DNA of 64,000 nt from an uncultured Bacteroidota bacterium. GTDB taxonomy: Bacteria > Bacteroidota > Bacteroidia > Bacteroidales > VadinHA17. Made by a program: the position numbers and the translations under genes. Below are positions 53,078 to 54,362 of the stretch, piece by piece (within the stretch, counting starts at the first letter, position 1; each line of letters opens with the position of its first letter). The notes beneath the pieces are model-generated. The model saw only the letters and a list, made by a program, of their open reading frames with translations, was not told where the DNA came from and ran no database searches. Location: NCBI GenBank assembly GCA_903824785.1, contig CAIJYD010000078.1, positions 163,365 through 227,364 on the forward strand, given 5' to 3'.

Positions 53078-53160
53078 CTTTAAAATTAAAGTGAAAGCCA
53101 AAGATATTCAATAAGGCAATATAGTTGCAGAAATTTATTAAAAAGGGAGTCACGGGTTAT

Positions 53161-53202
53161 TAAAAACAAAATGGGAACTATTCGTTAAGAGTAGTTCCCA
53201 TT
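53161..53202 (-). terminator. Strong intrinsic terminator of the 53.2-53.7 kb RNA
   Basis: Perfect 11-bp stem AATGGGAACTA (53170-53180) / TAGTTCCCATT (53192-53202) with an 11-nt loop. On the minus strand it runs into TTTTGTTTTTA. It lies about 80 bp before the UbiD start and does not end any protein gene, which points to a non-coding transcript. Confidence 0.8.
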
Positions 53203-53657
53203 CATCATTTTCGACCAAGGCCGTTAATGATATCAGATTACTGTTATTCTGACCGGCTGCGTTGTCTGATACTGGATCTGATTCTGCAACCCCTGGCTTT
53301 CCGGTATTGCCTGTTACAGCATAACCTTCCTGCTTTCCTTTCGTCCGTTTTTAAGGCAGACTTCCGGGATGAAGTGTCTTTCAGGCTCCGTTGTGTATAT
53401 CCCGAAGGATTCCGCATCAGTTTAAGATTACCCGTGGCCGAAGCCCTTCGTATTCTATCGCCCTGTGACTCAATCGCTGAAAGAACGTTTCCGGTTTTCG
53501 TTGACTTTCTGAACATCCTGGACGCGAGGTCCTTTTAGTTCAGGCTTCGGCTCTCCTTCTGCGCAGACCCGAAGGTCTGACTGAGGCGGATTGTGCTTCA
53601 CTTAAGTAACCTTTTCCGCTTCCACATCTTTCGAGCAGTCTTTTATCGCTCACCTGA
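53161..53657 (-). ncRNA. Putative structured non-coding RNA of about 500 nt, unknown family
   Basis: Minus-strand region bounded by a promoter (53663-53698) and a terminator (53161-53202), visibly richer in G+C than its flanks. It contains many hairpins: CAGACC-UUCG-GGUCUG (53564-53579), AUCC-UUCG-GGAU (53399-53410), GGC-UUCG-GCC (53436-53445), a nested pair CTGAAC/GTTCAG (53509-53514 with 53538-53543) around GGAC/GTCC (53520-53532), and a long-range ATCAGAT/ATCTGAT pairing (53232-53238 with 53276-53282). Short open frames on either strand are Arg/Ser-rich and not protein-like. It lacks the conserved GAGGAAAGUC and ACAGAAUCC boxes of RNase P RNA and the tRNA-like CCA end of tmRNA. No known family was recognised. 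Confidence 0.65.
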
Positions 53658-53662
53658 TGAAA

Positions 53663-53698
53663 CAAATTTATACCAGGATTGAGTAAAAACCAAACAAA
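53663..53698 (-). promoter_or_regulatory. Strong promoter for the putative ncRNA
   Basis: On the minus strand TTTG (53694-53691), 20 bp, TAAATTTG (53670-53663); a second TTTG lies at 53698-53695. This is a near-consensus Bacteroidetes promoter pointing into the hairpin-rich region. Start of transcription is expected near 53657. Confidence 0.65.
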
Positions 53699-53730
53699 AA
53701 GAGCCGTTGTTATAAACCTGATTTTAACAA

Positions 53731-53756
53731 AAGTTATCAACAATTGTTAATAACTT
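53731..53756. promoter_or_regulatory. 26-bp near-perfect palindrome, possible operator
   Basis: AAGTTATCAACAA / TTGTTAATAACTT: 12 of 13 positions pair. It lies between the divergent ncRNA and ridA promoters. A second, smaller palindrome CTTCG-A-CGAAG follows at 53754-53764. This fits a dimeric regulator site. Confidence 0.45.
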
Positions 53757-53888: not shown

Positions 53889-54362
53889 ATGACACACGAT
53901 CCCGATCAACGAATTATTGAACTGGGACTGATATTGCCGCCTGCCCCAAAACCTGTCGGAGTTTATAAGCCGGTTCTTATAGCAGATAAGTTTTTATTTG
54001 TCTCCGGACAGGGCCCCATGAGGGTTGATGGTACTCTTATCACAGGTAAAGTCGGAGCAGATATGGATACCGAAGAGGGTAAGCAGGCTGCACGACAGGT
54101 TGCTCTTACGATGCTGTCAACCATCAGGACCCATTTCGGAGAGCTGAAAAAGATTAAACGGCTGGTAAAAGTACTTGGAATGGTCAATTGTACCCCAACC
54201 TTTGATAAGCAACCTTTAGTCATTAACGGATTCAGTGAGCTGATGGCTGAAGTATTTGGCGAGGAGAACGGGATCGGCGTACGAAGTGCCGTTGGAATGA
54301 CTCTCCCATCGAATATACCTGTTGAAGTGGAAGCTATGTTCGAACTTCATAAGGCGGAATAA
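53889..54362 (+). CDS. RidA-family (YjgF/YER057c) protein
   Basis: A 157-aa protein of the RidA superfamily. Visible segments are PPAPKPVGVYKPVLIADKFL, FVSGQGPMRVDG, LVKVLGMVNCTPTFDKQPLV and GVRSAVGMTLPSNIPVEVEA (the GxRxAVG Arg that binds the imine carboxylate). RidA hydrolyses reactive enamine/imine products of PLP enzymes. The longer form seen here is the subfamily with ILPPAPKPVGxY at the start. Its last base overlaps the ATG of the PLP enzyme that follows, a tight coupling that suggests the two act on one pathway. Confidence 0.92.
   Translation: MTHDPDQRIIELGLILPPAPKPVGVYKPVLIADKFLFVSGQGPMRVDGTLITGKVGADMDTEEGKQAARQVALTMLSTIRTHFGELKKIKRLVKVLGMVNCTPTFDKQPLVINGFSELMAEVFGEENGIGVRSAVGMTLPSNIPVEVEAMFELHKAE

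Follow-up and report, generated by a model that had tools for sequence, protein, structure and literature searches.

The question raised by this locus is whether a hairpin-rich interval of ∼500 nt, lying between two protein-coding genes of the window (the whole 64,000-nucleotide stretch of DNA that was analyzed), is a gene at all and, if so, what its product does. The first-pass annotation had given it a promoter and a terminator of its own and had read it as a structured RNA that encodes no protein. Covariation, the absence of a conserved reading frame and a negative Rfam search bear this out, and comparative analysis confirms the locus as a real folded RNA gene of ∼500 nt on the minus strand. 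The promoter, UUCG hairpins and terminator named earlier all exist; what had been missed was the strand, together with the upstream four-box array, the BoxA-like motif, the helix between the two ends and the distribution across the class.

Read directly, a Bacteroidetes-type promoter (TTTG-N20-TAAATTTG) occupies positions 53694 through 53663 of the minus strand. The UUCG loops read UUCG on that strand only, and promoter, hairpins and terminator agree with a single minus-strand transcript running from ∼53659 to the T-run. On the minus side, the T-run follows the last hairpin in 28 of 28 aligned sequences. The TAnnTTTG form of the −7 element is kept in the aligned relatives, a conservation partly built in among relatives found with the promoter/5′-end search pattern, of which it is a part. 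A mechanical scan called the hairpin at 53170 through 53202 plus-strand terminator-like, finding 2 sites against 1.7 expected; because such sites occur at about chance frequency, the scan alone proves nothing. Table 1 collects the coordinates.

Table 1. Features of the RNA gene and its upstream region, in transcript order (positions in the window)
Feature	Positions	Strand	Basis
Four-box array, putative DnaA boxes	53745-53753, 53734-53742, 53722-53729, 53711-53718 (whole array 53711..53753)	-	fixed spacing
-33 element TTTG	53691..53694	-	direct reading; aligned in relatives
-7 element TAAATTTG	53663..53670	-	direct reading; TAnnTTTG kept in aligned relatives (partly built in, see text)
RNA gene, ~500 nt, 5′ end ~53659	53160..53659	-	28-sequence alignment and covariation
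P1, 5′ strand	53652..53657	-	alternative pairs at several positions
Conserved 5′ segment GUGAGCGAUAAAAG	53640..53653	-	alignment of relatives
UUCG hairpin CAGACC/GGUCUG (helix 7)	53564..53579	-	reading and covariation
Nested hairpin (helices 9 and 10)	53509..53543	-	5 and 3 pairs changed on both sides
BoxA-like CGUUCUUU	53480..53487	-	GTTCTTT frequency in members; D. orientale rRNA leaders
Conserved 3′ loop AAUAACAGUA	53239..53248	-	alignment of relatives
P1, 3′ strand	53233..53238	-	alternative pairs; six-pair test in further loci
Hairpin before terminator (helix 24)	53203..53232	-	6 pairs changed on both sides
Terminator hairpin (53170-53202) and T-run (53169-53155)	53155..53202	-	reading, alignment, covariation

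Single-sequence folding gives weak evidence and does not tell the strands apart (z = −1.97 for the minus strand, −2.29 for the plus strand). The case for structure is comparative. Alignment A1 comprises 28 of 30 oriented loci, with L011 (at a contig end) and L015 (holding a run of N) left out. Its RNAalifold consensus has 120 pairs, 49 with double changes; adding one pair gives 121 pairs in 25 helices. Covariation, proposed earlier as one of several checks on this locus, is found at 50 of the 121 pairs, which have changes on both sides, and codon-type conservation is absent. Paired cells make up 96.5% in the alignment and 91.3% in shuffles, which do not keep relatedness, and all 500 shuffles fall short of the alignment on each of the five measures. 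Sliding the partners by one to three columns leaves 27 to 44% of cells paired and 13 to 22 double-change pairs, a control that favors the consensus because the structure was derived from the same alignment. Paired columns contain 319 G-U cells against 38 A-C cells, a count that leans toward the minus strand, on which the structure was predicted. None of the frames stays open through all 28 aligned sequences, and codon periodicity is not clear; a protein-coding gene was rejected on these grounds, in agreement with the earlier statement that the interval holds no credible protein.

The two long pairings put forward earlier met different fates. That at 53509 through 53543 is supported by covariation in helices 9 and 10. 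That at 53232 through 53282 is not in the consensus; the strand at 53233 through 53238 pairs instead with 53652 through 53657, at the RNA's 5′ end. This helix, P1, joins the two ends and presents the conserved loop GUGAGNGAUAAAAG opposite AAUAACNGUA. Among 110 members, P1 position 6 is G-C in 58, A-U in 47 and unpaired in 3; position 5 is A-U in 96, G-C in 9 and unpaired in 5; and position 3 is U-A in 44, U-G in 34, C-G in 29 and unpaired in 3, all these being counts of related sequences rather than of independent events. The 3′ motif is probably misplaced in at least three members (L116, L130 and L168), which were kept in the P1 and BoxA counts.

The RNA matches no known family. Rfam 15 gives no match at gathering scores across the whole window, and a search of 53000 through 53900 returns one chance miRNA match (E 1.3), so that the significant Rfam hit named earlier as a refutation is absent. 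The earlier failure to find boxes or shapes typical of RNase P RNA, tmRNA, SRP RNA or 6S RNA likewise holds, with no Rfam match to any of them in the region: the genome's own RNase P RNA lies on contig C99 (247 bits), while tmRNA, SRP RNA, 6S and 6S-flavo are without a match at E ≤ 5, and ARAGORN finds 0 genes. GOLLD, ROOL, OLE and the other Rfam families do not match the region either. The GUGAG start brought a group II intron into consideration; no intron model matches. Sixteen distant members gave 0 matches to Rfam at gathering scores. At E ≤ 0.5, a set of 18 more diverged loci matched Flavo-1 (RF01705) once and the L19-Flavobacteria leader (RF03130) seven times, all outside the RNA; these two families match loci of flavobacterial type, but upstream of the array. 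Sub-threshold matches in the same set were to CsrC (0.3), BSnc120 (0.39) and RsmY (0.45).

Relatives of the RNA extend well beyond its genus. A DNA search of 60 genomes matched 32, namely the window's own and, at 71 to 85% identity, 31 of the 35 other genomes in the genus. The 24 genomes from other families gave no match. The genus genomes lacking a match are G002, G018, G019 and G030, of which G019 is 98% complete. When 295 genomes of the order were searched with R1, a covariance model of the first 117 alignment columns, 25 had a hit at E ≤ 0.05; by eye, 20 of these hold a member, 3 within the genus and 17 beyond it. On inspection, the matches in the other five genomes (L044, L045, L049, L054 and L057) proved false, as did L050, a second match in a genome with a real member. 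The wider members have in common the upstream array, the promoter, the 5′ end YAYCRRGUGAGNGAUAA and a 3′ part in which AAUAACNGUA is followed by the P1 partner, the hairpin and the terminator; their middle is variable. The promoter and 5′-end pattern occurs in at least 117 stretches in named genomes, including Draconibacterium orientale, D. sediminis, Maribellus and Gaoshiqia. By regular expression, the 3′ motif lies 200 to 567 nt away in 99 of the 118 matches listed; the expression used does not find it in the other 19, several of which end at a contig end. One exact pattern had 0 matches in viral contigs, and spread by viruses was rejected on that result.

A search of 295 genomes of the order with R2, a sequence-only model of the upstream region and the first 24 nt, gave hits in 111 at E ≤ 0.01 and, by a hand count, in 63 under a stricter rule (E ≤ 1e-10, with the match extending at least to position 130). 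In a further 30 loci (L208 through L237), 23 were scorable by the 5′-end expression, and all of these carry the 3′ motif together with the six P1 pairs, a combination found in 1 of 1150 mononucleotide shuffles; the test is only partly independent because several of those genomes had been seen earlier. At the level of the class, R2 matched 74 of 295 genomes at E ≤ 0.01. Among 29 class loci read, the frame of the RNA is present in families f121, f129, f143 and f165, family f123 has a shifted frame with a GCAGUU/AACUGC P1, and the 3′ motif is present in 11. In a sample of 296 genomes of the phylum, 17, the window's own among them, had a match at E ≤ 1e-4; the RNA is therefore either absent or unrecognized in most of the 279 genomes where R2 has no match at this threshold.

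Ten of the 17 phylum matches belong to a single family, f173, with 11 loci (L345 through L351, L353, L354, L359 and L360). In these loci the array lies in a long intergenic region, often flanked by rplS and an isocitrate dehydrogenase gene; the next gene is isocitrate-dehydrogenase-like in 8 of the 11, and the one examined matches TIGR00178 partially and below the cut-off because the gene is cut. The L19-Flavobacteria leader matches in 7 of 8 of these loci scanned, which marks f173 as flavobacterial. The conserved RNA ends are not recognizable in these flavobacterial-type loci; we class them as likely homologs.

Upstream of the promoter, 53 of the 56 regions aligned have the array in the order TTATNAACA, ∼2 nt, TGTTNATAA, ∼4 nt, box, ∼3 nt, box. 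The E. coli DnaA box is TGTGGATAA. We compared the positions of such boxes with GC skew in two chromosomes, each scanned through in part and sampled in the rest. In D. orientale, the skew minimum of a contiguous 789,800 bases lies at 1,928.2 to 1,932.2 kb, and in the 1,147,801 bases covered, clusters of at least three boxes within 250 nt are limited to two places, 1,929.0 to 1,929.2 kb (4 boxes) and 1,673,447 (3 boxes), the latter away from the minimum; at the RNA promoter of this genome, two boxes fit the strict 9-mer and two are degenerate. In CP070687, the minimum of 445,000 bases scanned is at 2,140 kb, and 687,002 bases seen contain clusters at 2,146,790 (4 boxes), within 7 kb of that minimum, and at the RNA promoter, 1,085,620 (3 boxes). 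In a scan allowing two or fewer mismatches, D. orientale and the window's genome each have the array palindrome in exact form at one place only, the promoter of the RNA; the exact copy of CP070687 is at 2,146,799, and its copy at the RNA carries one mismatch. Sites with two mismatches are as many as in a reversed control. The RNA lies away from the skew minimum, and hence from the likely origin, in both chromosomes, and the idea that its locus is itself the origin was rejected.

Seven loci of six families (L264, L265, L274, L275, L276, L279 and L280) have the same array and promoter immediately upstream of dnaB, all seven dnaB genes exceeding the TIGR00665 cut-off, and one genome (G317) has both the RNA and an array-preceded dnaB. 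L264 and L265 come from the class set, and the other five from 20 regions picked by hand, which are partial R2 matches plus L285 (from the palindrome scan) and L286. Of these 20 regions, 5 precede dnaB, 3 adjoin a LOG-like gene, 8 lie ahead of intergenic stretches that by eye are RNA-like (L267 through L273 and L284) and 4 are unclear (L281, L282, L283 and L286). A partial array is present at L356 (genome G470, family f159) between an ftsA-like gene and ftsZ, the latter above the TIGR00065 cut-off. At L277, at L278 and at L285 (the last being G329 C1 2,146,799), the array lies between the LOG-like gene and an ORF; the ORF tested, at L278, has no NCBIfam match. The L285 site may be the origin of CP070687. 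Because of their position, at or near the skew minimum and before dnaB, we infer the boxes to be putative DnaA boxes. The promoter of the RNA thus carries boxes of the origin type, as expected for a gene of a DnaA regulon, and this suggests that production of the RNA is tied to DNA replication.

A second motif concerns elongation. BoxA, with NusB and S10, protects untranslated transcripts from Rho. GTTCTTT occurs in 62 of 99 members among the matches listed against 1.8% of dinucleotide shuffles, counts that relatedness inflates, and is absent in the remaining 37; it is found in 10 of 25 short and 52 of 74 long members, with no clean dependence on length, and in 10 of 11 f173 loci. In D. orientale, AAGTTCTTT is common to both rRNA leaders and the RNA; AAGTTCTTTAAAATTTTG stands in both leaders 115 nt before 16S, and the RNA has AAGTTCTTTCAAGATTG. 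In two flavobacterial-type genomes, the rRNA leaders carry GTTCATT or GTTCATA. The RNA is probably transcribed with Nus antitermination. The abstract of a published study agrees with protection of untranslated transcripts from Rho by BoxA and Nus factors (PMC4807359).

From these features, we lean, with somewhat better than even confidence, toward a free-standing, trans-acting structural RNA belonging to the DnaA/replication-initiation regulon of Bacteroidia. Comparison shows a promoter with a four-box array of fixed spacing, a terminator belonging to the RNA itself, and covarying helices closed by P1, which joins the ends and displays the loop GUGAGNGAUAAAAG opposite AAUAACNGUA. DnaA would bind the boxes, so that RNA output tracks the replication-initiation state, and the BoxA-like motif would let RNA polymerase and Nus factors traverse the long untranslated stretch without Rho termination. 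In the weakest step, the conserved loop may dock a protein partner, with the fast-evolving middle as scaffold. A bolder and quite tentative extension, which may have some chance of being right, is that of an ancient Bacteroidia RNA inside the initiation circuit, its level set by DnaA and its loop feeding back on initiation or helicase loading.

The gene neighborhood bears on whether the RNA might act in cis. In the window, a UbiD-family decarboxylase gene above the TIGR03701 cut-off lies downstream on the same strand, and a Rid-like gene (match below cut-off) on the other side; beside the latter, a plus-strand gene at 54362 through 55489 matches the aldolase family BhcC below cut-off. With neighbors named from their translations, the genus-like group has the order rplQ, eno, RNA, ubiD (rplQ in 20, eno in 27 and ubiD in 29 of the 117 matches listed), and ubiD is the nearest downstream gene in 28 of its 29 loci. 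A riboswitch-like 5′ leader of the downstream gene would account for this arrangement, but other groups have other neighbors, for example a kdsA-like gene or a dnaG-like gene facing the opposite way, members without ubiD exist, no neighbor is kept across families, and the transcript stops at the hairpin and T-run, short of the gene; we rejected a ubiD leader, to which we give almost no credence, since neighbors differ among groups. The dnaG-like (primase) gene is nearest downstream, facing the RNA, at L113, L140, L144, L145 and L164. The RNA could also be a sponge, whatever its control, whose repeated loops would titrate a protein in the manner of CsrB. The variable middle is indeed rich in small hairpins, three loci of family f134 carry CCGCAGAA modules in two to three copies, and two diverged loci gave the CsrC and RsmY matches noted above; those matches, however, are at chance level, and we consider a sponge improbable.

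Other readings turn on the array. A trans-acting RNA might be controlled by some other regulator, of nutrients or growth, that in some lineages acts on dnaB too, leaving only an indirect link to replication. The box here is TGTTNATAA, not the TGTGGATAA of E. coli, and the dnaA stretches examined contain no three-box cluster; yet the densest clusters of the stretches seen are at the skew minimum (D. orientale) or no more than 7 kb away (CP070687), and seven dnaB promoters carry the array. We judge another regulator unlikely, while giving it real weight. In E. coli, datA and DARS are elements for the titration and reloading of DnaA, and the present locus might chiefly be such a DNA element, with the RNA a by-product. 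Its inverted box pair, its fixed spacing and an exact palindrome unique to the locus in two genomes would fit, but the RNA is under strong structural selection, and promoter and terminator are kept in the relatives seen, so that a DNA element seems very improbable. The trans-acting RNA of the DnaA regulon thus remains the reading we prefer.

Large structured RNAs are in themselves a familiar kind; as an RNA family, this one appears to be new. GOLLD, ROOL and OLE are alike in being long, highly structured, untranslated bacterial RNAs of largely unknown function (PMC12286853). The present RNA, unlike these, is chromosomal, with 0 matches in viral contigs for one pattern, has a conserved box array upstream and is without an Rfam match. 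CcnA of Caulobacter, also non-coding, has likewise been linked to the cell cycle and to the region of the origin; it lies at the origin of an alphaproteobacterium, is presumably activated by CtrA and pairs with mRNAs (PMC8959179), whereas the RNA described here is larger in structure, away from the origin and in Bacteroidia. The idea of DnaA control over non-coding RNAs has a precedent in Caulobacter ncRNAs with predicted DnaA boxes, a bioinformatic prediction for single ncRNAs (PMC5988900); here the array is conserved with the RNA across many genomes. The Rfp RNAs of Flavobacterium psychrophilum are independently transcribed, and some are structured and conserved (PMC9723704); it is possible that they include an earlier description of this RNA. 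No description of it was found in the literature searched, which excludes preprints and most subscription papers. A structured RNA gene in several families of a major class, under a promoter with origin-type boxes, would be an unrecognized part of replication or growth control, and it bears on the question of what DnaA controls in Bacteroidota besides protein genes. Were the RNA part of the initiation circuit, a large structured RNA would be a cell-cycle component of a whole bacterial class, with a four-box promoter common to it and, in some lineages, to dnaB. For annotation, the gain is a new family that can be found by two end motifs and the promoter array.

Copy number and internal repeats vary among members. 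One genome (G302) has two RNA copies 800 nt apart, and G107 also has more than one; tandem RNA genes are present at L038 (G302), L042/L060 (G107) and L157. In family f134 (L355, L357 and L358), the middle of the RNA holds 2, 3 and 3 strict copies of the repeated module, respectively. The copies examined in G302, and those at L042 and L060, each have their own array.
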